DNA of 64,000 nt. Origin: Polytrichum commune (lineage: Eukaryota; Streptophyta; Polytrichopsida; Polytrichales; Polytrichaceae). Shown here in pieces: positions 1 to 19,600 of this stretch. The position numbers and the translations under genes are program-made. The notes beneath the pieces are model-generated. The model was not told where the DNA came from. It saw only the letters and a list, made by a program, of their open reading frames with translations, and searched no databases. Each line of letters starts with the position of its first letter. The first letter of the stretch is position 1. The stretch lies in contig OX485805.1 of the NCBI GenBank assembly GCA_950295325.1, positions 44,478,758 through 44,542,757 on the forward strand. The letters are read 5' to 3'.

Positions 1-426
1 TATGTGTCTACCACAACAAACGACAAATTGATATTAGAATCCCTGGGATGAAACACAACTAAAAAAATTGGGATTCATGTGGAAAATGAATTACCTTAGG
101 GCATGGAGATGTCACTTCGGCGAAGTCGGCGTTAGCATCCGGAGGACGTTGTCGACATGGTGGACTGGCAATATAGTTCTTAGGTCGCGTTTGGAATGGG
201 GAATGCTGTTAGGATACAATAACATAAGAGTCCATGGAAGAAGGACATTATGTGCAAGAGGAGCCCGTCCGTTGCCCTTTAGTAAAGATGAACATGTTCA
301 AAACATATGAATTATAGCCGACTAAGTCCTACATATTAAAATTCGCTATGACAACCATAATTCCCAAAAACACAACTAACATTGTCCAAGTGGCCTGATA
401 CATTCATTGAATCAACTACCACATTG
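1..426. other. window edge, no supported gene
   Basis: An 80-codon plus-strand frame at 68-310 shows no recognisable domain and no splice context, so no gene is called. The stretch is probably the 3' flank of the minus-strand gene that ends at 690. Confidence 0.4.
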
Positions 427-447
427 CCACGGGTGAACACCCGTGGG
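427..447. repeat. 22-bp-type palindrome, copy 1 (AA centre)
   Basis: Arms CCACGGGTG and CACCCGTGG flank the bases AA. The outer flanks CATTG and CAATG prolong the symmetry imperfectly. It lies about 240 bp downstream of the stop codon of the minus-strand gene, in its 3' flank. Confidence 0.95.
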
Positions 448-689
448 ACAATGCCAGACATTCACTGTGGTCGGAAATAGTCGGGTATTCTCTAACACCG
501 CAGTGTTGCAAAGTAGTAGACTCTCAGTGAGATACATTCATGACCATGACATGTTTGCATGAAGAAAATCCACAAAACCAAAACAAGTTTCAAATGAAGT
601 TGAAAGGCAACAAAGTTTCAGATCCACTCATTTCAAATACAATGTACCGATAGTGCAAATGTGCACTATAGGCGGCCCCAATAGGGAAT

Positions 690-1514
690 CTACATTAACA
701 TCTGAGCCTCTGGAACCATACGGGCAGAAGTCAGTATTTTATGTCTAACTAATGATTGCTTATAAATCAGAGAACTTGGCAGCTCTAGATTGAAGGGTCC
801 CTGTCCCGATGGATAAGGGTTGCTCCCCACAAAATCTGGCACATACTGTTGAGAACTCAAGAGCCTTTGCAGGTAACTATGCAGAGTATCCAAGCTTTGG
901 TTTGACATAAATGGTACAGGGTTAATGTAGCTCCCAGGAGGGTTTGGGATGCATTTGTAAGGGGAGTCATCAACAAGTAATGTAGTCCTATGACTGGGTT
1001 GCTTCGTATGCGGCACTGGATGCGTCCGGCTCCACTCAAAAAATGCGCACAGGTCTTTCATGAAGAAGCTTGAATCAGCATTCATAGGACTAGGAAGAAC
1101 TTGTCCTCTCTCATCCTTCAGAGTGTGACACAATTCTTGCCCAAACACATACTCTGGATGTCTACAACCATTGAAGAAGTGCCGGACAATTGGCTGAAGA
1201 TTCTTCATAAGCTTCGACGACCAGATGACAACATGGAAGTTTGAGAGAACAAAACGCAGAAAGCGTCCCAGTCCTCTCCTAGGTATGAGGGCACTATATG
1301 GGAGAAAGAGTGGAACCAACTCCCCAGTTATCTGAGGGCTATGTTGTGATTCAAGAGTCTTCCTGGTGTTGACATTGTCGCACTTTGTTGACCTCACCAG
1401 GATCCCGTTCACATCCAGCACTAACCATATCTTCTCTCTCCGATGGACAACAGTGGTTGGAGAGGTGAGGATCTGGCGATGACAAAATTGAAAGTCATTG
1501 TAAAGAATTTCTAT
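690..1514 (-). CDS. exon 5: FCP1/NIF-type HAD phosphatase-like domain
   Basis: This exon encodes an FCP1-homology (NLI-interacting factor, HAD superfamily) domain. The reading begins at an acceptor (TTTTTCCTTAG, exon from 1514) and stops at TAG 690-692, giving 274 residues. Visible hallmarks are KIWLVLDVNGILV (the nucleophile motif), then RRGLGRFLRFVLSNFHVVIW, and later TLLVDDSPYKCIPNPPGSYI, the typical FCP1/SCP aspartate loop. The motif is D-x-N-G rather than the canonical D-x-D-G-T, so the second Asp (general acid) is Asn. From memory a plant subgroup of NIF-like proteins also has D-L-N-G, so activity cannot be judged. The family dephosphorylates proteins such as the RNA polymerase II CTD. 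The exon starts in phase 0, as does the end of exon 4, so it may be the C-terminus of the upstream gene. A separate gene is the alternative. Confidence 0.8.
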   Translation of the reverse strand: MEILYNDFQFCHRQILTSPTTVVHRREKIWLVLDVNGILVRSTKCDNVNTRKTLESQHSPQITGELVPLFLPYSALIPRRGLGRFLRFVLSNFHVVIWSSKLMKNLQPIVRHFFNGCRHPEYVFGQELCHTLKDERGQVLPSPMNADSSFFMKDLCAFFEWSRTHPVPHTKQPSHRTTLLVDDSPYKCIPNPPGSYINPVPFMSNQSLDTLHSYLQRLLSSQQYVPDFVGSNPYPSGQGPFNLELPSSLIYKQSLVRHKILTSARMVPEAQMLM

Positions 1515-1732
1515 CTAAGGAAAAAGTATATTCTACATGATTTTTATCGAATGAAACAACACGTTGGGTACACATGAGTATGCAAGATAAAAGAATGCCT
1601 CCACATTTATGGATTAGTTTTGCGAGATCGAGGAAAATATCGTACCGAAGGTGGTATTCCGGCAGTGGCTGTATGACCTGTGACCACATGCACACATGAC
1701 TTATGAGATCCACACGCTCAAACCCATAATCT

Positions 1733-1754
1733 CCCACGGGTGAACACCCGTGGG
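1733..1754. repeat. 22-bp palindrome, copy 2 (AA centre)
   Basis: Full-length copy with perfect 10-bp arms CCCACGGGTG and CACCCGTGGG around AA, inside putative intron 4. Confidence 0.97.
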
Positions 1755-1832
1755 CACAATATCAAAAGTCCCTTATATAAATATTACTCGAGAGATAACA
1801 ATTTGTATGGAAATTGAAAAGTATAAACAGGT

Positions 1833-1860
1833 GGTCCCACGGGTGTTCACCCGTGGGACC
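1833..1860. repeat. 22-bp palindrome, copy 3, extended to 28 bp (TT centre)
   Basis: Core at 1836-1857 with TT in the middle. Flanking GGT and ACC extend the perfect arms to 13 bp. It lies in putative intron 4, opposite in orientation to copy 2. Confidence 0.97.
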
Positions 1861-2068
1861 AATTGCATTCAAATAACACTATATATGATACCTTGAGCTT
1901 GGCTTAGGGGGGGATCCCCACCATGTGCAGGGTCGTCATGAGAACTCGGTGGAATGACATCCCGTTCTGCCGCAACCAACACCTGTTGCAAAGACACTTT
2001 TAGAAATCTTGACGAGTTTGCTTCCACCGCCAAACACAATATAGCATTGGAAAGGGAGTATGTATTAC

Positions 2069-3823
2069 CATTTCGGACGATGCCGGTTGACCCTCAGCAA
2101 CACGTTCGACATGAGGGCTTGAGGACTCCGCAACTGCAACATCGACTTCCCTCCTTGGAGACTCTGGCACTCCAGTAATGTCAATGATCTCCAACGTAGA
2201 GTCCACAACACTGCCGGCTTGAGCGGCCGAGGACCCCGCGAATTGACCTCGTTCATCACGATGTTTGGGAGCTTCGAACGCTGTCCATCTCTTTCTCATT
2301 TTCTTTAATGCAGCGGCATGAAGAATATGTTTCACCTTCACTGCTTCACAAAACGCTGGTGTGGAGAGATAAGCGAACATCTTGTGATAGTCGTACGACG
2401 TGTCCAAATGCGCAAGATTCAATCGCACGTTCTCGGGCACATCTACCAAGTATTTGTCCACAAATGGGGCAAAATGCACCTTGTCCTTCCCATCCGATTC
2501 CTTGCCCATGTCAGGTCTCCCAGCAAACACCGGGTGAGGGTCATCAACAAAGTTGAGTTTCACTCTGTTGTACCCAGGCTTCCCATAATCCTCATCCTCG
2601 GAATCATCCGTCATGTAGTCCGCAAACGTCCCCCGAACCCGATGTGGAACTCGATCTCTCACCTTCACCCTCACGTCTAGTTCTACGCATCTTTCGGGCA
2701 CATCGTCATCACTATCCAAGCATATGACTTCGGTTCGAATAACCTCCTCTGCTTCATTGGATGGTGCCGCTACAGTAGGCTCTTCTGCAACCACAACACC
2801 AGGTGAATCACGATTTGATCGCCCATGTCCTAGCACCTCGAGAACGGCAGCGGCAACGTCCTCAACAGGTGAGCTGACGTTCAAATCTGTGTTTGTCCCT
2901 TCAACATGCACAGCTTCAGACATGATTGCATCCCGCGGAACATCCGCTTGGCCAGATTCAACCTCGCGATAAAGACCAGAATGCTCCGTTGCCTCCGAAG
3001 ACCGCGAGTGATCTCCAACTCTAGCAGGACGTAGAGATGACCTTCCCCTTCGAGGAGCTTTCATTTTCTTTCTTGCAGTCGGTTTCGATGCAGACCTTGC
3101 AGCAGGATTAGCTGACTGCGGACGCTCATCCTCCTCATATTCTTCCATAGGTTGAACATCTAGTTGTTCTTGACTTCGTCTAGATGTGTCAAACTGTGCA
3201 AACCCGCGGCCGGGTGTAGATGGGATCCCAGACGAGAAAGATCCCACAGGGTGATGGACACTGTGCTCGGCTTGTGGACGACCAACTTCCTCTAAGTTGG
3301 AAGCATCCTCTTGCCGCTCCTCCTCACCCTCCCCCTCCCCCTCCCCCACGGGTGAACACCCGTGGGGAACCTGCTCCGGGGACATGGCCTCCAAAGAGGC
3401 CTCCGCCATGGCTGACGCCTTGTAATTGAAGGCCTCCTCCTCCACCTCTGCCATGACCTCCGCCAGTGCGTCGTCCATGACCACCTCTTCTTCCTCTTCC
3501 TCTTCCTCTTCCTCTTCCTCTTCGTCGGCCACTTCCTCTTCCTCCGCAGACTCCCCTAGGACAACAACTGGGTCATCTTCCTCCTCCTCCTCCTCCTCCT
3601 CTACGTCCTCTTCATTTATGTCATTCGCACGCTTTCTTCCAATCTCGCGCTCAATGATGGAATCCACATCGATACGCCCTTCTTCCTCTTCCAAATCCTG
3701 GGCAGCGAATTTTCCTTCCTCATTCCACCTTTGTATGCTCCAGTCAACTGCGGCAATCATCTTCGTCTTCGCCACCTCTAGCATCTCTGCAGGCACAATA
3801 TTCAACACCTTCATACCCAATGC
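2069..3823 (-). CDS. exon 4: acidic, low-complexity nuclear-protein-like region
   Basis: 585 codons, phase 0 at both ends: acceptor TTTTTGCAG before 3823, donor after ATG at 2069. The start resembles a continuation of exon 3 (LGMKVLNIVPAEMLEVAKTKM). Long glutamate runs follow at about 3480-3610, then a basic patch with TARKKMKAPRR at 3047-3079 that recalls histone H3 (TARK and KAPR). EVICLDSDDD resembles a SUMO-interacting motif, and LEIIDITG near the end may be another. Such composition is common in chromatin or nuclear proteins; no catalytic domain is recognised. One palindrome lies in frame inside the exon at 3345-3366, adding PHGCSPVG-type residues. The plus-strand open frame at 3426-3848 (poly-Ser) is only the antisense of the Glu codons. 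Confidence 0.75.
3345..3366. repeat. 22-bp palindrome, copy 4, inside coding exon (AA centre)
   Basis: Full-length copy sitting in exon 4 without breaking the reading frame, next to a GGGGGA-type purine run on the coding strand. It translates to the peptide PHGCSPVG. Confidence 0.95.
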
Positions 3824-4122
3824 CTGCAAAAACCAAGGCATGAGATAAATAACTTCTCAATCAAATTAGTCTACATCCAAAAGCGAATAGAATTAAACCA
3901 ATAGTCCCAACTATTTGTCTACCAACTAATTGTCAGGAAAGCTATCGAGAAGGTGGCTATCAACCAGGTGGATATAAAGCAGGTGGATGTCTAGGCCCAC
4001 GGGTGTTCACCCGTGGGCCTCCCAACCTGGTTTATGGTTAGGTTATCCAAAACACCATCCAAACCAACGATAATATTCAGAAATTCAAAAACCACTTAGG
4101 GGAAAAGATGCTCATTACTTAC
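3824..4122 (-). other. intron 3 with palindrome
   Basis: Donor CAT|GTAAGTAATG (exon 3 ends at 4123), acceptor TTGGTTTTTGCAG (exon 4 from 3823). Both sites are strong plant-type sites and the phase is 0. A 28-bp palindrome is at 3993-4020. Confidence 0.85.
3993..4020. repeat. 22-bp palindrome, copy 5, extended to 28 bp (TT centre)
   Basis: Core at 3996-4017 with TT in the middle; flanking AGG and CCT extend the perfect arms to 13 bp. Lies inside intron 3. Confidence 0.97.
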
Positions 4123-5385
4123 ATGTGCCACTATGTGCGCCTTATTGCCTCCACAAATATTGAGAAAAGAAGACCCCTCAAGACATGAAGGCTTGATGAT
4201 ATCTATGTAGGTCTGCATCCTCAACTCCCCCTTGAATAAACACTTGGCCTCCTCATTGGAATACGCCCTTTTCACTGAATAACGTTTATATCGCCCCGGG
4301 TCATGGACGTCCAACATCTTCCGGCCTCCACAGAGCCGCACAGCCACCTCCGAACTTGATTCGCCCCTATTGGGAAAAATGTAGTTTGTAACCCGAAGAG
4401 CATTTGATTCGAAGAAGCAATCGCGAGATGCAATTTTCTCCTCTTTAGTGCCATGGTATAAGGCGTCACAAAATCTGGCGTTGCTCGGAAGGTGCGCCTT
4501 CAGCACATTGTGAATGAAATGCCGATCCGGATATTCTGAAATCACAGTCCACAATTGGGGGGAGTTTAAAATGCCTGGGAAATCACGACGAAGACCTTGC
4601 AGAGTGGAATCCATACACTCCTTCACACGCCCCCCAGTGTCTTTTCCCGCCTGGACTCCGGGGAGAAACCTTGTGTCCATGTACGCGTGCAGGACTGGTG
4701 CAAGCACTGTCCCACCACTGATCTTGTAGTTGTTGTCAATAGACAACACGACATGCTCGGGTGTAACCTCGGTGTTATGTGTACCTAAAATGTTCCTCAC
4801 TCCTTCTTTAAACCGGTCCGGAATAGGTACTCTCTTCCTTGTGGGGTTCATAGCGCCAAGAAGGTACTCCGCTCCAAGCAAGTCTACAAGTCGTTCTCGC
4901 TGGAGTTTACCAAACTTATTCGCATACTTCCATACTCTCCAACAATCACGATCAATGGTCTCTTTCTGATCGACGTGGACAATGTACAATGGAGTCGGGT
5001 CTAGACACTGTGCCATCGCGATATAAGTTTCATTCTTCTTTTTCCTGTTCATCGCCCAATCGCGCACAGTCTTCAAGGTATGTCGAGGGTGCTCCTCTCC
5101 ATCTCTGGTGGTGAGGATTTGATTCGCTGCCATGTCGAGCTCCATCTCTGTCAAGCCCCGAAATTGTTTCAGGTCGTTCTTGACCACCTTCTTCGACTTA
5201 AACCCCTTTGTCTCTTTCATAAGAGCTCCGGTCTTCGGGTCTACATAGTCACCACTCTCGTAATCCTTGAATATCCGCTCTCACTTCCTCCATATGTCAT
5301 CGCCCAATACAGGCAAGACGTGCTCCATGATCAGGTTGGTCTCCTTCTCCACGCGGAACGTCCACATGACGCACGTAATAAATGC
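4123..5385 (-). pseudogene. exon 3: middle region, interrupted by in-frame TGA
   Basis: 421 codons from acceptor TTTGATACAG (exon starts 5385, phase 0) to the donor at 4123. The reading runs AFITCVMW... to a TGA at 5281-5283, then continues in the same frame through KDYESGDYVDPKTGALMKET to the exon end. A single TGG to TGA change (Trp in an R-K-W-E-R context) would explain it. The 374 codons after the stop look coding throughout. No known domain is recognised. SFLNICGGNKAHIVAHALGMKVLNI across the exon 3/4 join has a faint nucleotide-binding look (glycine-rich loop, then a hydrophobic strand), but this is too weak for a call. Because of the stop this copy probably makes a truncated product of about 478 residues, unless it is read through or is a sequencing error. 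Confidence 0.75.
5281..5283 (-). other. in-frame nonsense codon (TGA) in exon 3
   Basis: TGA is read on the minus strand, 21 codons upstream of the ATG at 5218-5220 and 34 codons after the exon start. Coding signal continues on both sides. Confidence 0.85.
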
Positions 5386-5534
5386 CTGTATCAAACACCG
5401 GCAATGTATCAATCTCTATGAAAAAACCTCCATGTATTTCCAGCAATCACCAACAACATGATAGTCGCCCACGGGTGAACACCCGTGGGAGTCACAGAAA
5501 TGAGAAATTCAAAAGTCACAGGTTTGAAAAATAC
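5386..5534 (-). other. intron 2 with palindrome
   Basis: Donor GAAG|GTATTTTT after 5535, acceptor GATACAG before 5385. Phase 0, 149 bp. A palindrome is at 5468-5489. Confidence 0.85.
5468..5489. repeat. 22-bp palindrome, copy 6 (AA centre)
   Basis: Full-length copy with perfect 10-bp arms inside intron 2. Confidence 0.97.
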
Positions 5535-6835
5535 CTTCCACTTCTTAAAAGCTTCCGTGTTGCTGGCCTTCTCGCGTACAGTTCGGTCAGGTCTTCCTCG
5601 CCTAATCCAGGTCTTCCTAGCGTGCTGAATGCACTCCGTAAATGACGGAAAGTGCTTCCTGTACTCACTATCCAGGTTCAGAACACCAGAGAGGTGGAAC
5701 AGAGGGTCGTCATCACCTTCAGGGGCCCAGACCACATTACAAGGCCATTTCGAGAAAAACCTCTTCACCTCATCTGTGCTGCTAGGGTCATTCACATACT
5801 CGAGACAGGCTGCTAACGTGTGCTGTCCATTTACCACGTGGAACGATTTGTCCTTCACCTCCTCAAAATTGAATGGTTTAGTTCGCCTATCCGAAGGAAC
5901 GATTGTCAAGAAGTTGGGATGAATATTCGGAATGAAGGCATAGTTGAATAACCATGTCTTGATCTCCTTCAAATGCGCCTCGGATATGGGTCGGCAATTA
6001 TACCCTGCATCTCCCCGCTCTATATTGTCAATATTGACATAGCCATTCACGCCTTCACCGAATATCCACACCCTTTGGTACTTGTTCTTGAACAACTCCA
6101 TATCCATCAACCTGTCTCCAACCGATTTGTCTGGAGGCCCATGCATTGATCGCTTGGGAATCTTCTCGAGTTCAAGAAATGGACTATCCTCAGGTGTTTT
6201 CTTCTTGCCTCTCTTGGAGACAACATCCTGGCCGTCAGTGTCTTCGACAATCAGTGGTTGTCCTTCATCGGGTCTCGTCTTCTTCCTAGACGAGGTGGCA
6301 CGTACATCAGCAAGATCCTTCCTCTTGCCATCGCGGATTTCCTTCTTCTTCAAAGATGCTTCCAACCTTGCCGCCTTTGCCTCCTCAACTATAACCTTCA
6401 CTCGTGCTAGAGCAGACTTGTAGTCCTGCTCGATCATTACTGACCTCTCCTCCACGGACTTCGTGTGCACATTGGTCTCGCAATATAGTATACAATAGGT
6501 GAGGAAATCACCGTTCAATAAGCGGATGTTCTCTCCCTCATTGTTGAGCTCTTCATTCACATCCGCATATGAGAAAGTCTCCACGAGTGCTGCAACCTTG
6601 AAGTCCTTCTTCCGTTCAGGCGACTTGCACATTATCAATACCCGGCTCCCATCCGCTTGAATGTCCAGTACATGTTTTGCCTTCATGTACTTTCTCCATG
6701 TGGAATTGGGCCCAGTCCTCGTGTAAAGCGAGAGCACCGTTGTCTCTCCGAAACCACTATACTGCATGAACCATTGCAAATCTGGGTCCAAAACTTCAAC
6801 ATCGTAATTCACCCGTCTGCCCACACCTCCCGATA
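5535..6835 (-). CDS. exon 2: ParB/DGQHR-like domain protein
   Basis: Starts after acceptor CATTGTCTTCTGCAG with TA completing a split Val codon, and ends in phase 0 at 5535. The first part (about residues 15-110 of the protein) is unrecognised. A charged, probably coiled-coil segment follows (VEERSVMIEQDYKSALARVK, EAKAARLEASLKKKEIRDGK), then Lys-rich nuclear-localisation-like stretches (SSRKKTRPDE, SKRGKKKTPED). The C-terminal part has YVNIDNIERGD, CRPISEAHLKEI, LTIVPSD and FHVVNGQHTLAACLEYV. This matches the layout of ParB/sulfiredoxin/DGQHR-type domains: an N-terminal strand and helix, then a G-(E/Q)-(H/R) box, here NGQHT with Thr in place of the usual Arg. In bacteria ParB binds palindromic parS sites and uses CTP. 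The match is at motif level only and its role here is unknown. Confidence 0.7.
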
Positions 6836-6938
6836 CTGCAGAAGACAATGCACATGTAAGTACTCAGCATAGCCCAATATTATCACGGATTCTATAACTC
6901 ATATAACATTGACGTGCACATAGGTATTGTGGTTATAC
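6836..6938 (-). other. intron 1 (103 bp, no palindrome)
   Basis: Donor AAAG|GTATAACC at 6938, acceptor TTCTGCAG ending at 6836. Phase 1: G plus TA gives GTA. It is the only intron of this gene without a palindrome. Confidence 0.8.
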
Positions 6939-6969
6939 CTTTACGGGCTATTTGCTTAGTTCTTGCCAT
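6939..6969 (-). CDS. exon 1: start codon and histone H3-tail mimic
   Basis: ATG at 6967-6969 is followed by codons for ARTKQIARK and one G before the donor. With exon 2 the protein begins MARTKQIARKVSGGVGRR. Canonical histone H3 begins MARTKQTARKSTGG, so positions 1-6, 8-10, 13 and 14 agree, and Thr to Ser at position 12 is conservative. The start is supported by G at -3 and +4 and by an in-frame TGA two codons upstream (6976-6978). The H3K4 reader/writer context (A-R-T-K-Q) and the A-R-K context of H3K9 are both preserved. Inference: the N-terminus may recruit or compete for factors that bind or modify the H3 tail. The exon is too short for usual ORF callers. Confidence 0.8.
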
Positions 6970-7148
6970 CTCAATTCAAATGAGAGAACACTTCGACACC
7001 TCTATGTACCTGAATGAAACACCAACTGTCTATCACATGTTTATGTCTAAAACCTTCAAATGCTTACAGAGACACACCAAATTTGTCTACATAGAAAATC
7101 AAAAAGACATTTATCAAACAAAATCTCCCACCCAGGTGAGTGCAAAGG

Positions 7149-7300
7149 CTCACGGGTGAACACCCGTGGGCACTCCTAACCAGGTGAGGGCAAAGGCCCA
7201 CGGGTGAACACCCGTGGGCACTCCTAACAAGGTGAGTGCAAAGGCCCACGGGTGAACACCCGTGGGCACTTTCAACCAGATGAGGGGAGAGGCCCACGGG
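7149..7300. repeat. 48-bp tandem array of palindromes (3 full copies plus a half)
   Basis: Palindromes begin at 7149 (first bases CTC instead of CCC), 7197, 7245 and 7293 (half-site only), exactly 48 bp apart. Each is separated by a near-identical spacer of the type CACTCCTAACCAGGTGAG plus GCAAAGG. All have AA centres. The array ends about 180 bp upstream of the ATG at 6969, so it sits in the likely promoter of the H3-mimic gene. Confidence 0.95.
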
Positions 7301-7514
7301 AGGGCTGATTTTTCACAAAGTTTTAGCTCGTCCACGTCCAAAAACCTTGAATTGAAAGGCAAAAAAAATCTCAACCCATCCCGAAACCGGTAATATCTAT
7401 ACAAGTTAAGTCTCCCTCAAGTTGGTACAAAATTAGGAAAAAAGAACAGAAAAAAACGAAGATGTCGACATGTGACCACGGACATGTTAGGGACCTTGTG
7501 AAGAATCACCACTG

Positions 7515-7536
7515 CCCACGGGTGTTCACCCGTGGG
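7515..7536. repeat. 22-bp palindrome (TT centre)
   Basis: Full-length copy about 550 bp upstream of the H3-mimic start and opposite in orientation to the tandem array. It is the last copy before a 12-kb stretch with none. Confidence 0.97.
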
Positions 7537-7890
7537 CACTTCAAATATCCACTTTCAGATAACCGCGTTCACACTAACAGAAAAACTGGGATTTATGTAA
7601 TGGACACTCACCAGGGTTCTTTGGGGGGACCATGTCAAAATTCTTTCAATACGAATGTGGTTTCCTGCACAAAACAAAACACAAGAGCTATTGTTTCAAA
7701 CTATGCCTACATGTGCAATACATTCATACTCTCAAACATCTCAATAGGTAAATTCTGCCCTCACATTCTTCTTGCAATCTGGTCTCACATTTTTATGAAC
7801 ATAACCTCTTGTCATTCATCTTGCATTCTGATTTGAGCATTTTTCTCACATTTCAATCAACTCTTCACACCCAAACATCACACAACTCAC

Positions 7891-8064
7891 ATGCAAATCT
7901 CTAGTATTTCTGGGTTTGAAATTCTTCAAGCAATTCAAACCCTAGTGCACCAGAAATTTGAAATGCAAGCAAGAGGAAGAATGCAAGCAAGAGGAGGAAT
8001 GCATGCAAGAGGAAGAATGCATGCAAGAGGAAGAATGAAATTGAAAGAGAAAGCAAAAGAGTGA
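7891..8064 (+). CDS. small ORF with 18-bp internal repeats, doubtful
   Basis: 57 codons from ATG 7891 to TGA 8062-8064. The second half contains four 6-residue repeats of the type MQARGR/MHARGR (18-bp DNA repeat, about 7963-8036) and then a lysine-rich end. No known family. The repeats and the purine-rich surroundings may simply be a minisatellite that happens to be open, so coding status is doubtful. Confidence 0.25.
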   Translation: MQISSISGFEILQAIQTLVHQKFEMQARGRMQARGGMHARGRMHARGRMKLKEKAKE

Positions 8065-8299
8065 AAGAGAGTGCAAAACATTGAAAGAGTTCAGAAACTT
8101 ACAAGCTTGTGGGTTCTCAATTCTTCATGATTGGAACTTCCCTCCACTTGCTTCAAGGTCGCCTTCCTCTTCTCCACATCTCACCTCTACCACATGCTGG
8201 ATTGAGCAAGAAACAACTATGTTCACCAAGAAACTATCACATATTCCAAGAAAATGCACACTGAATCTATTCCAGGGTTTTCTTGAGAAGAGAATCAAG

Positions 8300-8500
8300 A
8301 CAAGGAGTACAATAATTGAATGAAGAGAAGAGAATGAAGAGAATGAAGAGAAGCAAAGCAAGTTCAGAATTGTGGGAGAAGAGTTTTGCAAGAGCATTCC
8401 AGAAAAGTGGAGAGTGGTGAAGGAAAGAGAGAAAGAATTGGGAGAGGAGAATGAGAGAGAGGGAGAGAGAGGGAGAGAGAGGGTGCGAAATGTTGCCATA
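8300..8500. repeat. purine-rich low-complexity tract
   Basis: GAGAAGAGAATGAAGAG-type and GAGAGAGGGAGAGA-type runs on the plus strand. Antisense open frames here are compositional artefacts. Confidence 0.8.
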
Positions 8501-8689
8501 ATGACGAGCGGGTGGAAGTCGCATGTCACATAATGCCTCATTAGTACGAAGGGACATGATGGAGGAAATCTCGGGACGCGAAGAGATATGCGATTTGGCG
8601 GCTAAAGTACGTTTTGAGGAGGGATGGGCGGTATGATGGTATTAGGACGTAGCGATAAAAAATTATTGGTACTTTGTAAGGTTCGCCCT

Positions 8690-9170
8690 ATTGGTATGAT
8701 AATTATTAGTACTTAGTAAGATATCTAAGTATTAGTGAGATAATTATTAGTACTTAGTAAGATATCTAAGTATTAGTAAGACAATTATTAGTAATTAGTA
8801 AGATAACTGCGTATTAGTAAGATAATTATCAGTACTTAGTAGGATAACTCATATTAGTAAGTTCATTATTAGTACTTATTAAGATAACTCATATTAGTAT
8901 GATTGATATTATTTTTATTGTTAGTAAATTGTCATATTCACTCTATTGTTAATATTAGTAATATTAGTAAAAATGATTTATAGTGATTAATAGTAATTAC
9001 CAGTAATAGTAACTAATAGTAACTAATAGTGACTAGTAGTGAATAATAGTGAATGCTAGTGCTTCATAGGTCATTATAGTCATTAATAATGTTTAATAGT
9101 GATTAATAATTATGAATTACTAATGGCTGACTAGTAGTGATTTATAGTAATAATAATAATCACTTTCAAT
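8690..9170. repeat. AT-rich 41-bp tandem repeat grading into TAGTAA runs
   Basis: About five successive units of 40-41 bp built on ATTAGTAAGATAATTATTAG and TACTTAGTAAGATATCTAAG run to about 8905. Degenerate TAGTAATAGTGAATAG-type sequence follows to about 9170. No coding potential. Confidence 0.85.
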
Positions 9171-10809
9171 CGATAAATGGTAATAGTATTGATAATGCTT
9201 AAAATAGGTTCATATTATAACATAGATTCCATACTTTAACATTCTACTCTGTAACATAGATTCCTATTATAACATACCAAAGTCAATTGCACATTCTCAT
9301 AATATGCGTGTAAGATGCTCAATCGCGCTTGACATCAAGCATAGCTATGATTTCCAATTCCTTATTGATGAAGTCGTGAGCATCCATAATAGGCCCACTT
9401 TCACCTTAGCCCATGAACTCAAGTTCGATTGTTCTCTTGTTTTCTCTTGGACTATGAACCATTAGAGTTCCAAGAATTCAAAATTTTAAATATAACATAT
9501 ATTATGGCAACGAAAATAATGGCATGACATAAGAAGCGGCCATGGATACTTATAAAGCATCAAAGTTGCTGGCCATTAGAAATCATCACACATAATACTT
9601 GCCGCGCATAATGGGTACATGCCCACCTCCCATACCCAATAAACCCTACTGGATAGGTAAATACTACTAGGAATGAACATAAATCGTTTAACATAAAAAA
9701 AAAAATTAGGCAATTTTAGCATAAATCTCTTTGTGGCTTTGCCCTCACCCCCATGCATTGAGAATCACTTCATAACTTGGTTTTAAAGTCATTCTCCTAG
9801 CGTTTATTCTTGTAATTGTATCTTAAGTTATATTATTACTAGATTCATTATGTGCTCTTCATTGGCTAAGATTTTTGACGTTCATAGTCGACATCTAATA
9901 TGAACACACATGCTTGCGATAACACAAATTCAAGAATGACCTTCTCAAAGGCACTAGAGTTATCATTTATCCCACTCAAATTTTTGGGTGGGGGTTGGTT
10001 GTTTTGCATGCAACACATATGGACTTAGCCAAAATTAGCGGTCAACTAAAGAGAAAGGACTTTGGAAACTAACATATTGAAGTACAAGGTGATATGCAAG
10101 GCCGCGGGAGACATCGGAATCGAAATCATATTGAGAGGATGACAAAGGAGGTGGCCAACGAGTGGGCCACATCAAGCACCACATGAATCTCGAGCAATAT
10201 TAAGATTGCATCTCCATAACCATACCTCATCGATTAAAGGGAATTCTAAATGATGGCATAAGATTTACGGAAATGAGAACTTGAATAGGAAATGGGTCAA
10301 ACACTTCAATGAATGAATTCATGTAAATCATGTGTACTCTATGAATTGAATGGTTTGTGGAATCTCGTAAAGATACTTTAGCGAGGAGTAGGTTAGGAAT
10401 ACATAAAGTCTTGAGACTCTTTCAAATTGAAATATTGAAATATAATTGAATAGAGGAAGAATAATACGTAGGTCATTCAATCCATGAAAGAGATAAAAAT
10501 AACTCCATAAGTTATTAGAGATGAGAATGATTTACATGCATGAACACTTAGCTTTGACATTAATGTCTTAGGGACTCGGGGGGGGGGGGGCACTGGCGAA
10601 AAATGTAGGAACTACGTGCGATAAAATATAGGGTCTTGTATAAAATTTGGCGTAAAATTTGTAAAATTATTAGATGTAGTATAGGGTGCTTTGGGATTGT
10701 GAAACATGATTATATGTAATATAGCATTTGACAAAACATGATTAAATTACCTAAGTGGTACATATAAAATAGCATGGACAAAAAGCGATAGTTTCAAAAA
10801 TTAAATACT
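9171..10809. other. AT-rich non-coding stretch with poly-G tract
   Basis: No gene is seen. A run of about 13 G at 10578-10590 starts a segment rich in AATATAGGG-type words that recurs at 11.6, 16.4 and 18.4 kb. Confidence 0.6.
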
Positions 10810-11106
10810 TTGCCACCAAAATATGGCATGTTCTATATAGGAAGGGTTCAAAAGATAAGGGTGAAGGTTGGTACTAAGTGGGGCAATTGTTGGCAACCCA
10901 TTGACTTGATGAAACGTGCAGTCCAGAACGGAAATAGAGAGACGCTCTTCCCAACTACTATGGCTTACCTCCATTGGTTAAAAAAACAGCTGGGTCTCAA
11001 CAAATATAAGTATGTTGAGAGTGATTGTGTGTGGGTTGATGTGGATGCTATTCTCTCAACAGTGTCTCTAGTAACAATGAATCAACTAGCAAAATCTACA
11101 CCTTAG
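10810..11106 (+). CDS. orphan coding fragment, unknown family
   Basis: 98 codons with protein-like composition: FYIGRVQKIRVKVGTKWGNC, then QPIDLMKR, TTMAYLHWLKKQLGLNKYKY and CVWVDVDAILSTVSLVTMN. It stands out sharply from the AT-rich non-coding surroundings. The family is not recognised. It lies inside the repeat-rich belt, follows a poly-G-associated repeat, and could be an exon or remnant of a mobile-element gene. The ATG may not be the true start, since the coding look begins almost at once. Confidence 0.45.
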   Translation: MPPKYGMFYIGRVQKIRVKVGTKWGNCWQPIDLMKRAVQNGNRETLFPTTMAYLHWLKKQLGLNKYKYVESDCVWVDVDAILSTVSLVTMNQLAKSTP

Positions 11107-12536
11107 ATGAGGTAGATGCAAACTCATTGAATGAGTTCATTTCAAATAAAAAATAAAACCTGTTAAATTTGTACTATCTCACACATGTGGAGATATAATT
11201 TGGAGAAAGGGTTGAATGATCATTAGTATACCTTGAAATCTGTAGTAGCCATTTCAGTTCGATTACCCTCATATCTCCCACATGTGTAAATGGTAGCCTA
11301 GCTAGTTTAGGTGGATTTTGCTTGCATGGCGTGGGATTTTCTACCAATGTGTAGGATTGGAAGATCAAGGCATCAATTGTAGGGCTTCTGCAAACCTTGT
11401 AAATGTGACTTTGAGACACATGTGGCTGGCCTGTTCCCTAAGACCTCAAGGTTTCTAACTGTGTTATCCAACACAACTTTCATTCGTTGGCTCGTGTTGC
11501 TTAATGACATGTAATTGCAATCTTTTGTTGTTATTGTTTAGTGTTTTGCTTTGCCCGGACTTCAGTGTGACCCTGAACCCTAAACCCTAGTAAATGTTTG
11601 TTTCTCTTACTTTGTACACGTGCTTCTAACGAGAATTCTACTGTATCATACACTTTAAGGAATGGGGGCAATCAGGGGGGAAAAATTGCATATAAGTAAT
11701 ATAGGGTACCATAAAATCAACCATCCAAGAATTTATAATTACCAATAGGGTGCAAATAATCACAACAATTTACCATTATTTCAAAAATTAGCATCCCTTA
11801 TAATCCTTTCTCATAGGTAAATAGCCCCCATTTTAATAGATCATTATCGCAGGTGTATGCAAAATATACAAGGGAATGCCCCCCCCCCCCCGAGCTTAGG
11901 GAACATCAACTTGAATTCTAAAGGCACTGACTCACTTAAGAATTATTGGACAAGGATATCATATTGAGATTGGAAATTAGTAAACATATGATCACAGATC
12001 CTCAACATAGTTCACATGCCAACCCATACCCCATTGTATGCCAGACTATCTCTTCATATGTGAACGCTACATGAGGTATAACTTAGAGCCATGTCATGAT
12101 GATGGATGAGTTCATCCATTGACCTTCTCATGTTAGCAACTTGTGATGCAACATTGTCATGGATGATTGCTATATTGTCTACTGTGATATAGTGATAACG
12201 TACATGTTCATATTAAACGGTTTTGTTAATTCCCACTACATTCCCAAGGGTAAGATGCTTAAGCTCACTATTGGCAAGTGTCATGTGTTTCATTTTAATA
12301 TTTAAGAGGAATACATCCTTAAGCATACTAATGGCATGTCATGTCAAGATTTTAATAAGTGCACTCAAACACCCAGTGTCATGTGACGACACTTACGGTG
12401 TTGTTGTTAATCTGCAATATAACATAGCATACCCTTCAAAATAGGGGTTTCCATTACTGTGGGTTTTTCATCTGTATATTTGGATGAAAATCCAATGTAA
12501 GGCAACGAAAGTACAATAATATTACAGTGGGCCACA
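11107..12536. other. non-coding, dispersed repeats
   Basis: No gene is seen. It contains an isolated CCCTAAACCCTA at about 11577-11590, a run of about 13 C at 11880-11892, and a segment at about 12095-12172 (GATGATGGATGAGTTCATCC and CATTGTCATGGATGATTG) shared with the MITE at 47.2-47.5 kb. Confidence 0.6.
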
Positions 12537-12729
12537 CTAAAAATGAACAACAGGACTTAGAATAATATAAGGTTTCAAAAATGGCAATGGACATCTTTAA
12601 AGTACTATAGGGTATGGAAGAATATGTAATTTGGAATTATATGAAATGCAAGGCTTTTTCTATTAACCCAAGGTTGAAAATGCTAATGAAATAAATAACC
12701 CTAAACCCTAAACCCTAAACCCTAAACCC
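12537..12729. repeat. dispersed repeat ending in telomere-like (CCCTAAA)4
   Basis: About 160 bp (words such as GGACATCTTTAAAGTACTAT and AAATGCTAATGAAATAAATA) ends in four exact CCCTAAA units at 12699-12726. The same arrangement recurs at 16441-16640. Confidence 0.85.
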
Positions 12730-12837
12730 ATTAGTGTGGTAGTCCACTTAGTGTTGGACCTTACTAGTTGCTCGCCATCTATTTGTGTCCTACTCATATG
12801 CAATTAGGAGTCTAGCAACAACTAATTCTCTTTTATC

Positions 12838-13030
12838 GCGCATCCATGTGCAAACAACCACTATTTTATATGGGGTTATTACTTTCAATTTTTTTCTTCA
12901 CATGCTATGATTATGTAGTTTTCTTAGTCGGGTTAGTAGAAAAGGGCCTTGCATTAATTACAAATCCAAATAATCGATTTGTTCCATACCCTATAGTACT
13001 TTAATGATGCCCAGTGTCATTTTTGACACC
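12838..13030. repeat. dispersed repeat, partner of 18.4-kb copy, partly inverted to 12.5 kb
   Basis: GTGCAAACAACCACTATTTT through TTCCATACCCTATAGTACTT matches 18432-18612 directly. Its second half is the reverse complement of the body of the 12537-12729 repeat, so the two form a loose inverted pair. Confidence 0.7.
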
Positions 13031-13059
13031 CCATATTATATTTGCTTTAACATGGGCGG

Positions 13060-16000
13060 ACGTTAAATACCCCCTCACGAACTTTTGGAGGTATCTAATC
13101 TGGGTTGGGGCAATCTTGTAGAGAAAATTTCTAAACCCGACCAAAAATTGCATTCTTGAAGGCCGCTTGACTACAAATCCCATATTGAGTGCACTAAAAT
13201 CCGCTTGACTTACCATAAATAACTTATATTTGTCATTCTAATGATAGATTAGTGCAAGTGTTTATAAGAGAATAAGGTATAAATAAATGATATGTTATTT
13301 GGAATTAGACTCGTGGGACAATGTTATAGATGGGGTATATATTACTGAGAAAATCATAAGTTTCTGACTATAGCCTATCTGAATTATTTAATAATTTATC
13401 CTCATCACATATTGTATTATCTTTCAAATCACATAGTGTATAACCGTTACTTTTAAATAAATATAATTATATGATACTAATACTAATACTAATACTATTA
13501 TGCAAATACTAATAATAACAATACTAATACTAATATTGAATTGAGTTTTTTAGTTCACCAATTTATCATAAGGTGATATATATTATTGTGCCATATTACA
13601 AATGTTTGAACAATCACACATGTGCAAAATAAATGAATTATGAACAAAAAGATGTCTATGACAACACTTCATAATTATATATTGCACACATTGATATCTT
13701 ACAATATTTATCAAAATAACCATGTGAAATTCAAAGCCACATCATGGCCTTGGAAACATCTCATGGGAGGTTGGAAAATAGGCTTAGAGCATCCAAGGCC
13801 ACATCATTGCCCCTTGCCAACAAATTAATATTTATAAAATAACTATGAGGGAGAAAGTAGGTCTTACATGCCAACTCGGAGGTATTTCACTAAAGTAAGC
13901 TCCATCCGAGCTTCTTGATGGACTCATCCGATTTTTGTTACCGGATGACTTTACTTGAGTGCCACGAATCCCCGGCCATTTCAAGTGGGCTTGTACGGTT
14001 AAGGTATTTGTTGACTTTCATATTTACGGCCTCGAATGTCCTTCCCAAAGTGCACATCTAAGGGTACTCATGTAAGTATAACCATGCTATCACATAGAGC
14101 CTTATTATAACCTAACATAGTCAATCGCACACTCTCAAAATATTTTCGGTCATTGTAGGGTCGATAGTGCACATGGATTGACAACCTAAGTACCAAAGTA
14201 CTAAATTTGAGCAACAACAAATCCCACATGGATGCAACATCTATGGCTACACGGTCCAAAATTGAGCTTTTATATTCTCCTTAAAGGTGATTTCAAAAAT
14301 ACTTTATGGCAAGTCCACAAGTCATACCCATGGATTGGAGCATGACATTATGGAAAGGTTACTTAAAGGTTACTCAAAGGTATTTGACCCCGATTTTAAA
14401 GAGTAGTTTAATAATCTCTAAATAGAAATCTCTAGTCCTATTGTTACCAATGCTTTCGACTTCCCCTCCCTTGGTCTCCCTCCCCTTAGTAGATGTTGTA
14501 TTGAATCATCCCATGATACCTACCTATGGTGCAACAATTAGAGTTTATTGCATTGAGTACTGACTGTTGTTTTGAGAGCTCACATGCTACATAACTAAAT
14601 AAATTCATTTTTTATTTTAGCAATTAGTTAAAAAAGACAATTAGTTAACAAAGATAATAAATTCATTTTTTTATTTTTTTTCCCAAAGCGGGTCACGGGG
14701 GCTTATGAGTGGGGCTATGTGCGTACATGCACATGAAGGTTTTACAGGGGCATGGGCATATGGTTTGCAAGGGTTAATGTATGTGGTTGGGTTCATGCAA
14801 GATATGAACCCAAAATGATTCATACGGACTGGTGTAATGGGTCAGGATGGCACATGCCCAAACTAATAAGGTATGTGGGGCTCATTGATAGTTGTAGTTT
14901 GAGGAGGGAAACTTGACTAGGTTGGTATTCTAGCACATGGAAATTGATTTTCATTTGAGCGGAGAAACCTTGGTTTTTATATACATTGTTAGTGTGAACC
15001 ATAATTTGTTGTATTTACATTGAGAGTTCATGATGCCATGTTCTTACTATTCAAACCTTGCCCAAAGTTTTCTTAATTTATGGAGATTTTGTTTTTCATT
15101 TTTCTAGCATCCCATGATTAAAAATCAATCAGTCTAGTCAATCAACAACTAAAGTGCGTCAGTACAAGGATGGCCACGTTTCAACTTGTGTTTTGGGCAA
15201 CGAGCCGAATCTGCTACCCCCCCCCCCCAACCACCATTGCCACTCCACATGGGAGTGCTCAGTCCAAAAGATGCTTGAAGATACCGGCAAAACCTTCACC
15301 AACGTCAGAGAACTCTATTTTGTTTCACCAAAACGATTGGTACATGAAAGTGTGCCCTAACTTGGGCTAGACTAATTTGGGGTCAATTCAACTAAATAGG
15401 GTTTCCAATAAACTTTGAAAAATAACCTCCTTACTACATACTAGTTTAAAGTTTCATTGTTGGATGAATGAGAGTAATATGCTCGTATGCGATAATCCCA
15501 TTTCGTTGGCCAAAAAAACATTGATATGTATATAGGGCCTCACATTAGAAGCCCAAGCCCTTGAGGATGTAAATGCTATCACAAATTCCCCATGCGTAGG
15601 CAAAGCCTATCAATCCGAGGGCAAAGACAAGAAAACATGCTCACATACAAGCACACCCAACATTCATCCAAAAACATTTTATTTAAAAATTCAATTGGTT
15701 TGACACCGTAATTAGCTTCAAAGTTACGGAATTAGTCTAAACCAAGGGGGTTTAGTTTTATATTTTCTGTCGGATCGATGAGAGGTACTCTTGAATGTGA
15801 GGTTTTTCTCCACATATGGAAGAGCACATCCTGAAAAGGGGAAGAAATTTTTATTAGGAAAAATTGAGTATGTTTGCTCTATAATGTACATGAGTTTGGG
15901 GGTGGTGGGGGGGGGGGGGGCTCATTATAGGGCTTATTGCCTTCCTTTTGGAAGCCGGGCTATGTTGGGTGCAACTATCTATTTGGGGCATCCAAGTTTG

Positions 16001-16380
16001 GGAAGAGGGGGTTGACATTGCAACCATTGTATCTCATTGCATCTATTAAGGGGTTGTATGTGTTTGTTTTGTATTGTTGTTTCAATGTATGTGTTGTGGC
16101 ATAAGGTTTAGGTTAAGGAGTATATGTCCTCTAGCTGCATTGGGAGTTCCAATCACACACGTGGTGTCCAAACTAAGTCTACCCAAACATGTGCATTATC
16201 CAAGGACATGTCAAATGATTGGAGTCGCGTTTTTCTACAGCCTTGTCGATCGGTCAGCCTTAACCATCATTTCGACATGGGATCTCAAAACGGTCATCCA
16301 AAGGGCATAAGTGGTGGGCCCATAAGTATATAGCGTAAAACCTAGGAAGTGCAGCTAGAAATGTAGTGGACACATACCGG
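13060..16380. other. non-coding AT-rich stretch
   Basis: No gene is seen. It has ATACTAATACTAATAC microsatellite at about 13478-13535, poly-C at 15220-15229 and a poly-G run at about 15901-15919. All open frames are short and without domain signal. Confidence 0.6.
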
Positions 16381-16440
16381 GGGGGGGGGGGTTGTGATGT
16401 ATTGGAGTAGAAATATACGTGCGAAAAATTGAGAGGGTAT

Positions 16441-16640
16441 ATGGGGACGTAAAATGAACAAAATGATTTAGAATAATATAGGGTGTCAAAAATGGCGTTG
16501 GACATCTTTAAAGTACTATAGGGTTTGAAATAATAGGTAACTTGGAAATATAAGTAATGCAAGGCCCTATCCTACTAACCCAGAGCTGAAAATGCTAAGG
16601 AAATAAATAACCTTAAACCCTAAACCCTAAACCCTAAACC
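16441..16640. repeat. dispersed repeat ending in telomere-like CCCTAAA run
   Basis: Second copy of the 12537-12729 repeat, ending in one variant (CCTTAAA) and three exact CCCTAAA units at 16611-16640. A poly-G run at 16380-16391 lies just upstream. Confidence 0.85.
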
Positions 16641-16730
16641 GGTTTATAAATGGATCAACATCTCTAGCGTAGTGCTATAAATTTGATGATTTCCCCAGTG
16701 TAAATAGGGCATTGACGCCCGAGTTGGCCA

Positions 16731-16795
16731 CATATATATATATATATGTATATATATATACATACATACATACATATAGACACACACACACATAT
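16731..16795. repeat. (TA)n / (CATA)n / (CA)n microsatellite
   Basis: Compound simple repeat of TATATA, CATACATA and CACACA. Confidence 0.9.
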
Positions 16796-16799
16796 TTGT

Positions 16800-18390
16800 G
16801 GCAAAGGAACTCTATGGTATGTTGCTACATGTCCAACATCATGATTGATAAGAATGACAAGTGATGCTAAAAGTTGAAAAATGGGTTGTGCAAATCAAAG
16901 AGGTGCCATGAAAATGGACTCTCTCTCCCTCTCTCTCTCTCTTTGGTGGCATTTTGCATGTTTCAGTCAATACATGCAAATTCATTTTGTAACATGTGGC
17001 GCTTTCAAGTCAAAGATGGATTAACCCTAGGCTTGAGCTATTGGGAGAAGGGTCGAATTGTCAAATTGTGTATAATGCCATAGTAGGAGTCTAGGTAGGT
17101 ATTGAGTCATCACATCCTATATCATACTATTAATGGGGGTGGGCGAGGCAAGGTTGTGGCAAGTTGACAAGGCTGGGCATGGTCACAAATCATTGGTGCT
17201 AAATTTGAGGTCACATGAGAAAGTTATTAAATGGGCATCTTGGATAACTTAACTTGATAAAACCACCACAAGCCATTGTGAACCGTTGATGATGAGGTTG
17301 AGGTTGTTTGGGAAGAGTGTTCAACAATCATCTTGGATAACTTAACTTGAAAAAACTGCCGTGAACCATCGGGGTTTAGGTTGAGTTTGAGGTTAAGGTT
17401 GAGATTGTTTGGGAAAGGTGGTCCACTTAACTTCATAATTATAAATTCAAGGTTTTATGTTTTGATGTAATAATTCTCAATGGTCATCTTCGATAACTTA
17501 AGTACATGATTGTGACCTTAGGGTTTTGATGTTTAATGTTTCAAAGTCGTGAACAAAACCAAGAGGTTTATAAAGGAAAGTGACACATACTCCTTTGGTA
17601 AGATGAATCCACAAAAGTGCAAACTCAAATTCATGATTTAACAAAGCAATTTAGCGATAGGTTCTTCCAATTTCATTGGAAATATGAACCAAGTTCATTA
17701 TTTAAACAACCAATTTCAGTACATGTTGTGAACAATTTCATGATTTGGTACCCATATTCAAAACTTCACAAAATCAATTTTAGGAAATGCATAACTCTAT
17801 TTCACAAAGAACATTACATCATGTATAGGATTATCCTAGTAAACAAATTGCTCCCTATTCCGCACAACTATACACTACACTCCAAAAACGTTATGCGCTT
17901 TGCTCACGCTACCAACACTCTTCCCATAATCAAACCCCCAACTACACTACGTACACTCTCAAACCCATGAGATTACGCACTCCAACTATGTTGGGTATGA
18001 GTTGTTTGCTTTGATGTACAATAATCAAAGACCAAAGGAAAAATGACATTGCTTGCTTCTAACTCCAAGGTAGTGTAATGAAGACCAAAGAAAATTTGAC
18101 ATCAAGGCTAGAGGCTTCCAAGTAAATACAAAACAATGAGAAGGCAAAGAATGCGAAATGAGGCGGCGAGAATTTGAGAAATAAAAAAACCATAAAGTGT
18201 GAACTTGATATGGAAGATTCACAAAGTTGATAAAGATAAATGTCCACTATCATGAAATTGAGGTGTGCCACATGTCAAGTCGGTTAAGAAGAATGATCAT
18301 GGGGATACAACAAAACATTTGCTCATGAAATACAACATTGGACAATGGGGTGGAGCGAGGCAAGTTGACAAGGCTAGGAAAGTATAAGTA
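16800..18390. other. non-coding stretch
   Basis: No gene is seen. Two similar segments near 17,230-17,300 and 17,325-17,420 (ATCTTGGATAACTTAACTTG followed by AACC and GGTT-rich text) suggest a local duplication of about 100 bp. Confidence 0.5.
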
Positions 18391-18395
18391 TCTTG

Positions 18396-18640
18396 GGGGG
18401 GGGGGGGCAGTGTGTTAAAAAGTTAAGGATATAGGTGCGAACAACCATTATTTTATAGGGGGGGTGTTACTTTCAATTCTCTTATTTTTCTCACAATGAT
18501 GCTATCATTATGTAAATTTCTACTTTGGGTTAATAGAAAAATGGCTTGCATTACTTATAATTCCAAATTACCTATTATTCCATACCCTATAGGACTTTAA
18601 AGCTGTCGAGCATACTGGTTGATACCCTATATTACTCTTA
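18396..18640. repeat. poly-G-headed dispersed repeat
   Basis: A run of about 12 G at 18396-18407 is followed by a segment (18432-18612) matching 12838-13030 directly. Confidence 0.75.
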
Positions 18641-19380
18641 ACTCCATTTATAATTTTTAGCCCCCATGTTTTTAAAATACCCTATCATTTGTTCGCACGT
18701 ATATTGCTACTCCAACCAATGACTACCCCCCCTCGAGAGAAGTATATGAAACTATTCCGAAGTTGCAACACAATGGGCCACAATGCTAGTTGCTCTAAAA
18801 GGAGCAGGCTAGTGTTGAGCTTCAAACCTTGAATTTGGGTGCAATCATATTCCCAAATTAGACTGCAATCATGAAAGATAATAGTAGCTTTGACCGGGTT
18901 ATCCTTGCACCTTGCCCACAAAATAGGCATCCTATTCACAATTATAAAATATAAAGGAACTATAACTCTGGTGAGAGAATCCCATGTCGTTGTTAACTCT
19001 TGCGGATGAAACAATACCTAACCTTCATACTATTCATTTTGCAAGGGTGCCCATCATAAGTGGTGGACCTGTTATGTGTGCACATGTCCTTATGTAATTT
19101 TGGCATGAGTATGCTTGGTAGTGGTATGAGGTGTATGCAAAGGTTATCCAATGATCATTGGTACCGCAAAGACTCTCCTTCGCCTTGTAACAAATTTTCA
19201 CTCCATGTACATACGATGTAGAACCCCACTACCGAAGGTCATCATTATTCAATATGAGGAAGGTTAGAACGTGATTAGCTAATAGCGATAGGAATTGGAG
19301 GGAATGACGTCTATGTACTTACGAATTTGGAGGGAATGCCTTGTACTTCCTCATGAGAAGTTGATGGCCATGCTCACGAC
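18641..19380. other. upstream flank of DUF7869 module
   Basis: No gene is seen. A minus-strand frame at 18685-19014 has no recognisable domain. Confidence 0.45.
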
Positions 19381-19390
19381 CTATATAAAG
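19381..19390 (+). promoter_or_regulatory. TATA box of DUF7869-type gene
   Basis: CTATATAAAG lies about 75 bp upstream of an ATG at 19460 (context AACCATGG), with a pyrimidine-rich leader (TTTCTTTCTCCTC) between, as in plant RNA polymerase II promoters. Confidence 0.55.
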
Positions 19391-19459
19391 GCCACCATTG
19401 GGAGGGTCATTTCTTTCTCCTCATTTGAGTCCACCCCCCTTCACCCTTGAGGAGCAACC

Positions 19460-19489
19460 ATGGAGAGCGTGCCTCACATGAGTGAAGAG
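19460..19489 (+). CDS. possible first coding exon of DUF7869-type gene
   Basis: ATG in good context encodes MESVPHMSEE. A weak GT donor (GAAGAG|GTTGGT) follows, and the reading then runs into palindromes at 19525, 19580 and 19626. This suggests that the palindrome-rich stretch up to 20336 is mostly intron. The link to the main exon is inferred and other exons may lie between. Confidence 0.3.
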
Positions 19490-19524
19490 GTTGGTTTTAT
19501 AACCCCAATGTGCATCCACTTTCC

Positions 19525-19540
19525 CACGGGTGCACCCGTG
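19525..19540. repeat. palindrome variant without the two central bases
   Basis: CACGGGTGCACCCGTG, a perfect 16-bp palindrome: the arms of the family joined directly. It is preceded by CC. Confidence 0.9.
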
Positions 19541-19579
19541 ACAACACTCTGGCCGTACCCCTCCTGTACGGCCAGTCTG

Positions 19580-19600
19580 CCACGGGTGTTCACCCGTGGG
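19580..19600. repeat. 22-bp-type palindrome (TT centre)
   Basis: Copy with 9-bp arms plus a trailing G, just downstream of the putative start codon. Confidence 0.95.

Follow-up and report, generated by a model that had tools for sequence, protein, structure and literature searches.

The window, a 64,000-nucleotide stretch of the Polytrichum commune genome, carries on its minus strand a gene whose first coding exon (exon 1, 6939..6969) encodes MARTKQIARK and the first base of the next codon, a predicted mimic of the histone H3 tail. Read from 6969 to 6939, the exon is ATGGCAAGAACTAAGCAAATAGCCCGTAAAG, with GTATAACC directly after it. Intron 1 (6836..6938, minus strand) is a phase 1 intron of 103 bp with GT..AG borders; the last base of its acceptor AG is 6836, immediately before exon 2 at 6835. 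A first-pass annotation had proposed that the two exons join in matching phase, that an in-frame stop precedes the start codon, and that 11 of the first 14 residues equal H3. All three proposals were borne out on re-reading the spliced N-terminus: the product is MARTKQIARK-VSGGVGRR (MARTKQIARK-VSGGVGRRVNYD), and a TGA lies at -9 to -7 relative to the ATG. The H3 tail of the window copy stands at the protein N-terminus, as it begins at the ATG and has an in-frame stop upstream. Proteins starting with Met-Ala ordinarily have the methionine removed, which would leave a free Ala-Arg-Thr-Lys end as in H3. The gene is presumably transcribed and spliced into an mRNA joining exon 1 to exon 2. A Pfam scan of four frames, exons 2-4 and the FCP1-like one described below, found no histone family and hence no histone fold after the tail.

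Exon 2 (5535..6835, minus strand) opens with VSGGVGRR, brings the coding sequence of the first two exons to 444 residues, and comprises an N-terminal beta domain with a weak PH-like match, a long helix, Lys/Arg-rich stretches and a conserved FHVVNGQHT region. It is followed on the same strand by exon 3 (4123..5385), by an acidic, low-complexity exon 4 (2000..3823, with a provisional 3' border), and by an FCP1/NIF-like domain (PF03031; 690..1514; E 4.6e-11) in a frame that is probably spliced to exon 4. Phosphatases have a DxD motif where this domain reads LVLDVNG, a replacement found in all four representatives aligned, and the domain is possibly an inactive phosphatase. Searches of exons 2-4 gave no Pfam family above the cut-off and no NCBIfam match, exon 2 had no sequence match in PDB, and no known DNA-binding domain was found in exons 2-4 (Pfam, NCBIfam) or in exon 2 (PDB). 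The VVNGQHT motif, which we take to resemble ParB, lies in a region with no Pfam or PDB match and with poor structure models; a ParB-like fold is suspected from the motif alone. None of the four scanned frames matched a DNA methyltransferase domain in Pfam. Tandem A+T-rich repeats of about 41 bp lie upstream of the gene at 8661-8903.

The window copy is broken by an in-frame TGA in exon 3 (5281-5283), on which the first-pass annotation was silent. This stop is present in four of the 18 copies readable there and absent from 14. The same Trp codon has become TGA in the window copy, L038, L047 and L052, and the G-to-A change must have happened at least twice, as L052 is from another lineage. Straight read-through of exon 2 meets a stop in 10 of 30 distinct copies, as expected for a mobile family with decayed members.

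On the opposite (plus) strand, a transposase-like frame of the DUF7869 family (PF25273; 20292..22367; Pfam E 3.2e-46) includes the motif GHTHEDVDAMFG from position 21999, and an open frame downstream (22462..23283) is probably its next exon. Our literature search returned no paper with DUF7869.

A transposon family with inverted ends

Twenty copies were fetched as 9.9-kb stretches, and 11 of them stop sharply at the same CCCAT with differing flanks, at one end only. The terminus of these 11 copies is ...CTCATTTTAGTTAATATCCCCAT, with a T in the C run of one copy, and it has 97 matches genome-wide compared with none in the control. We paired adjacent minus-then-plus termini with an outer span below 130 kb, making no use of exon 1, and obtained 38 inverted end pairs, leaving 21 termini unpaired. 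The pairs span 9.5-126 kb with a median of 25.1 kb, and 20 of the 38 measure 24-26 kb. Exactly one exon-1 site lies in 37 of the 38 pairs, and in 20 of these 37 it is 7,994-8,084 bp from one end. These elements support the earlier suggestion that the H3-tail gene belongs to a mobile element. The single pair without an exon-1 site (C1:77152704-77176775) still has the DUF7869 motif.

The element of the window (C3:44477719-44502537) is 24,819 bp long and covers positions 1..23780. The first 1,039 bases, including the left end, precede position 1, and the right inverted terminus, CTCATTTTAGTTAATATCCCCAT, lies at 23758..23780 on the plus strand. Both ends, the DUF7869 gene and the palindromes described below fall beyond the interval that the first-pass annotation had marked. 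Inverted 18-mers (CTCGGGGGGGGGGGGGCA) placed 1.3 kb apart inside the element mark a segment at 10575-11894 that may be a nested insertion common to the window and L054 copies, the latter aligning through the region (98.8%).

The DUF7869 motif occurs in 36 of the 38 end pairs, and 33 of these 36 motifs are 1.75-1.79 kb from the end that they face. For 47 of the 57 exon-1 sites listed genome-wide, from all three lineages of the family, the 40 kb upstream contain an opposite-strand DUF7869 motif, while about 0.003 per site would be expected at random and other arrangements were seen at only two sites. Conversely, 47 of the 62 DUF7869 motifs have an exon-1 partner and 15 do not. Exons 2, 3 and 4 and the FCP1/NIF-like domain also recur together in the three lineages, which are defined by intron 1; identity to the window is about 65-100% for exon 2, exon 3 and the FCP1-like part, and falls to 51% in exon 4.

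At the level of sequence, these comparisons show that an accessory gene, with exon 1 as its first coding exon, is regularly present in a DNA transposon family of about 25 kb with inverted ends. They likewise show the other regular gene of the element, on the opposite strand, to be the predicted, transposase-like DUF7869 gene, which is probably the transposase. The element encodes two genes on opposite strands, and the H3-tail protein is separate from the DUF7869 protein. The end-pair census covers termini of the lineage-I type, and 20 of the 57 listed exon-1 sites lie outside the detected pairs. Among them are all nine sites whose exon-1 letters are of the lineage-II/III type, seven of which intron 1 confirms and two of which are assigned from exon 1 alone; the termini of lineages II and III either differ from the lineage-I-type end or were not found.

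Conservation of the H3-like start

We searched the genome (407.8 Mb in 64 contigs) for a degenerate pattern encoding MARTKQ[T/I/M]ARK followed by a GGT donor, allowing up to two mismatches. At least 61 matches were obtained, compared with none for the reversed-pattern control, so the exon-1 match is not due to chance. Four matches continue with AAGTCT as H3 genes do, and at least 57 are transposon exon 1. Among the 57 listed exons, 37 encode MARTKQTARK, 15 MARTKQTTRK and two MAKTKQTTRK, with MARTKQIARK (the window), MARTKQTAHK and MARTKQTSRK found once each. Residues 1-9 of H3 are exact in 37 of these exons. All 57 keep K4, K9, Thr3 and Gln5, and 56 keep Thr6, although the search pattern itself favours these residues. 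Thirty of the 57 copies (L003-L032), including the 20 fetched as 9.9-kb stretches, were read beyond exon 1. In every one of the 30, exon 1 joins V[S/P]GG in phase and the GG at positions 12-13 is present, so that identity of the encoded protein to H3 covers residues 1-9 plus this GG.

The Ile6 of the window copy is found in no other of the 57 listed exons. A twin of this copy lies 229 kb away and differs from the ATG on at two of 6,969 bases, one of which produces T6I; the twin has Thr6, and Ile6 is a derived change in the window copy. We considered Ile6 as a meaningful variant and rejected this, as T6I fits methyl-cytosine decay at a CAG site. The variants T6I and A7T correspond to C-to-T and G-to-A at one such site, and both appear to bear the mark of this decay. 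Residue 7 tolerates change, since 15 of the 57 listed copies read MARTKQTTRK.

For the selection test we used six representatives, all encoding MARTKQTARK, and left out the 20 copies with other peptides, the window included. Exon 1 has no non-synonymous difference among the six, and up to five synonymous differences over 6.8 synonymous sites. In exon 2, lineages I and II are separated by a dS of 2.5-2.7 (saturated for L030) and a dN of 0.18-0.21, while dS to lineage III is saturated. The exon 2 dN/dS is 0.07-0.18 in eight of the nine pairs with estimable dS and 0.55 in the close pair L035-L034 (dS 0.04); between subgroups of lineage I it is 0.08-0.18 at a dS of 0.49-1.25. MARTKQTARK is encoded by seven DNA versions that require at least nine changes, all synonymous. 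The probability that five random changes are all synonymous is about 0.0004 (0.0008 with transition bias). The constraint on exon 1 is no weaker than that on exon 2: at the between-lineage dN of exon 2, zero changes in 20 sites have a probability of about 0.02-0.03 per pair. Intron 1 has 56-63% identity between lineages, above all shuffles except in one pair. The pattern of substitution shows purifying selection on the predicted H3-like protein start, and mimicry of the histone H3 tail by the predicted transposon protein is well supported at the sequence level.

Metagenome searches returned 41 relatives (37 from the first search and four from a profile search), all unnamed or annotated as ‘hypothetical’. 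Searches of viral contigs and of contigs from bacterial and archaeal genomes found no relative. One of the 41, P0005, begins MARTKQTARK and continues through an in-frame intron into VSGGMSRAVNYD; its identity to the 30 copies read beyond exon 1 never exceeds 82%. The other relatives start inside or after the intron. Exon 1 appears in just one of the 41 because gene callers working on unspliced DNA see the exon only where intron 1 reads through. The first-pass annotation had named loss of the ARTKQ start in homologous loci as evidence against its proposal; the start is kept in 37 of the 38 end-to-end elements and in P0005.

The selection results also bear on two explanations that deny the tail a role as an H3 mimic. 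Transposable elements often capture host exons, and exon 1 could be a functionless relic of an H3 gene captured in this way, with which the nine residues identical to H3 agree. However, the peptide of exon 1 has remained identical over a dS above 2.4 with synonymous change only, and the selection test largely refutes this explanation. The genome encodes MARTKQTxRK at 70 places, 53 in the transposon family and 17 outside it, and two of the 17 were read; both are H3 genes and have no intron at codon 10. This also argues against a relic, which we consider extremely improbable, and led us to reject a simple capture of an H3 exon together with its own intron. The conservation of the N-terminus could alternatively have nothing to do with H3 and reflect, for example, the needs of translation start, of splicing or of protein stability, as might be expected of a tiny first exon adjoining a donor site. 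We regard this as very improbable: the nucleotides vary at synonymous positions, and an exact match to nine residues of H3 with a correctly spaced GG is hard to explain otherwise.

Palindromes and possible function

A palindrome of 20-22 bp, CCCACGGGTGWWCACCCGTGGG, is repeated in introns and in the regions that precede the two genes, and one copy lies within a coding exon. The window has 15 such sites with up to two mismatches between 426 and 22454, all within the element, compared with none in 100 shuffles. Three are carried by 48-bp tandem repeats upstream of the accessory-gene ATG (7149..7266; CCCACGGGTGAACACCCGTGGG, the first with one mismatch), and another lies further upstream at 7515..7536. 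Within the accessory gene, sites are found in intron 2 (5468..5489), intron 3 (3996..4017) and coding exon 4 (3345..3366). Three more lie at 1836..1857, 1733..1754 and 426..447 (one mismatch). Towards the DUF7869 gene, three sites lie upstream of the frame (19579..19777, two with one mismatch), one at its start (20271..20292, one mismatch) and one between the two plus-strand frames (22433..22454).

The core of the palindrome differs between lineages. Counting only sites with perfect outer arms, we found TG..CA in 167 of 167 sites from 15 lineage-I copies (10-14 perfect sites per stretch), most of which are close relatives whose sites are not independent. The six copies of lineages II and III, by comparison, have CG..CG in 57 of 61 sites, CG..CA in four and TG..CA in none, with 9-15 sites per copy in five and a single site in the broken sixth. 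Seven of the 41 metagenome proteins read through a palindrome, and the core agrees with that of the nearest lineage in all seven: five nearest to lineage I are of the TG type (two of these being >99% identical to copies of the Polytrichum genome) and two nearest to lineage III are of the CG type. The symmetric difference between CG..CG and TG..CA could have begun as methyl-cytosine (CpG) decay, although lineage I has no mixed site. Symmetry and concerted change are what an array of sites bound by a dimer would give, and the array points to a local, sequence-directed action and not to simple titration.

Our best reading, which we hold at somewhat short of even, is that a protein of the element sits on the palindromes and displays H3 tails with which it engages enzymes or readers of the H3 tail, with local anti-silencing as the result. 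A protein encoded by the element, most simply the H3-tail protein, would bind the palindromes as a dimer, as their symmetry and concerted change suggest, and would place H3-like tails on the element's own DNA. The palindromes could instead be bound by the DUF7869 protein or by a host protein. The tails would then recruit or block H3-tail enzymes and readers; the activities concerned may be H3K9 methylation together with chromomethylase, or the methylation or demethylation of H3K4. Silencing would probably be relieved locally and sequence-specifically, as it is by VANC at the VANDAL elements of Arabidopsis. We infer each of these steps: action in the nucleus, binding to the palindromes, recruitment or blocking of proteins that act on the H3 tail, and relief from silencing. 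A more specific version, possible but on balance doubtful, is that the transposon dresses its own DNA with counterfeit H3 tails at lineage-specific palindromes, where false H3K4 and H3K9 substrates would divert or block silencing at that element only.

Other roles for the tail can be compared with this reading. Readers of H3K4 or H3K9 might bind it as a chromatin tether that leads the transposition complex to one type of chromatin or keeps it there, the target being the insertion site and not the silencing of the element itself. Such a tether would fit the regular occurrence of the tail in a transposon that has a transposase-like gene as well, and the retention of both the K4 and the K9 contexts, but the lineage-specific palindromes in introns and upstream regions would be left unexplained and we find the idea unlikely. 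It is distinctly unlikely that the tail acts as a signal for nuclear import or for hitch-hiking on histone chaperones, and not as a mimic of chromatin marks. A signal for nuclear import is known to lie in the H3 tail; exon 2, however, already has Lys/Arg-rich stretches, and import is not expected to require an exact Thr3 and Gln5. A soluble decoy, an idea raised in the first-pass annotation, would be a free protein that titrates H3-tail enzymes and readers throughout the genome. An N-terminal, near-perfect H3 substrate would serve this purpose, but histone H3 is far more abundant than such a decoy, which would have to be expressed very strongly or concentrated locally, and the array of palindrome sites argues for local action; we judge a decoy improbable. 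Local anti-silencing at the palindromes remains our preferred reading.

Relation to described systems

Examples of histone mimicry are known in viruses and host proteins, and VANC is an example of anti-silencing; a transposon gene that regularly includes an exact H3 tail maintained by selection would unite the two. Literature searches limited to openly licensed papers found no plant element bearing a histone tail. The SNAG domain sits at the N-terminus of transcription repressors of the host and does not match H3 exactly. In SNAIL1 and GFI1 it is described as a mimic of the H3 tail that occupies LSD1, and it is the nearest described H3-tail hook, directed at an H3-tail enzyme as the Polytrichum tail may be (PMC10940100, PMC5896174). 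In contrast to SNAG, the Polytrichum tail is identical to residues 1-9 of H3 and is encoded by a transposon. ADNP shares the H3K9 context ARKS, but its motif is internal, host-encoded and lacks the H3K4 context; that study ascribes only a minor role to the motif and reports that the methylated ADNP peptide is not bound by HP1 (PMC3022755). H3-mimic sequences in host proteins have also been described for Swi6/HP1, as cited in PMC7192584.

VANC of the Arabidopsis VANDAL elements is the nearest system described in the sources consulted (PMC5735166). Its binding sites are short motifs, which are arranged as tandem repeats in non-coding regions of the element that encodes it and which vary from one related element to another (PMC5735166). 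Like VANC, the Polytrichum protein is an accessory protein of a DNA transposon encoded beside a transposase, here a probable one, and its element has lineage-specific motif arrays in non-coding parts, together with one site in coding exon 4. Unlike VANC, it has a histone tail, none being described for VANC in the portions of PMC5735166 used here. The motif also differs in being a palindrome of 20-22 bp, the element is about 25 kb long, and binding and hypomethylation are in this case proposals. Homology to VANC was judged by Pfam alone, in which exons 2-4 have no family above the cut-off. The Sola1-1 element of Ectocarpus, also a giant DNA transposon (21.5 kb), has its transposase and an accessory gene on opposite strands, the transposase corresponding to the transposase-like gene here; the accessory gene combines ParB-like and DNA methyltransferase parts and is proposed to bind and epigenetically modify its own DNA (PMC12477816). 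The Polytrichum element has no methyltransferase match and has an H3 tail instead. It raises the testable question of whether a mobile element uses a histone tail against H3K9/CHG silencing, and its palindromes of the TG and CG types could serve directly as specificity partners in tests of binding.

The remainder of the window, beyond the right terminus, includes further mobile sequences. Two more diverged DUF7869-like stretches (24310-26430, and 61930-63106 on the minus strand) are 25-49% identical in pieces and lie outside the element. A Ty1/copia-type retrotransposon occupies 27496-33238 on the plus strand, with gag, integrase and related Pfam domains in 27496-30408 and reverse-transcriptase-like frames, read by eye, further along.
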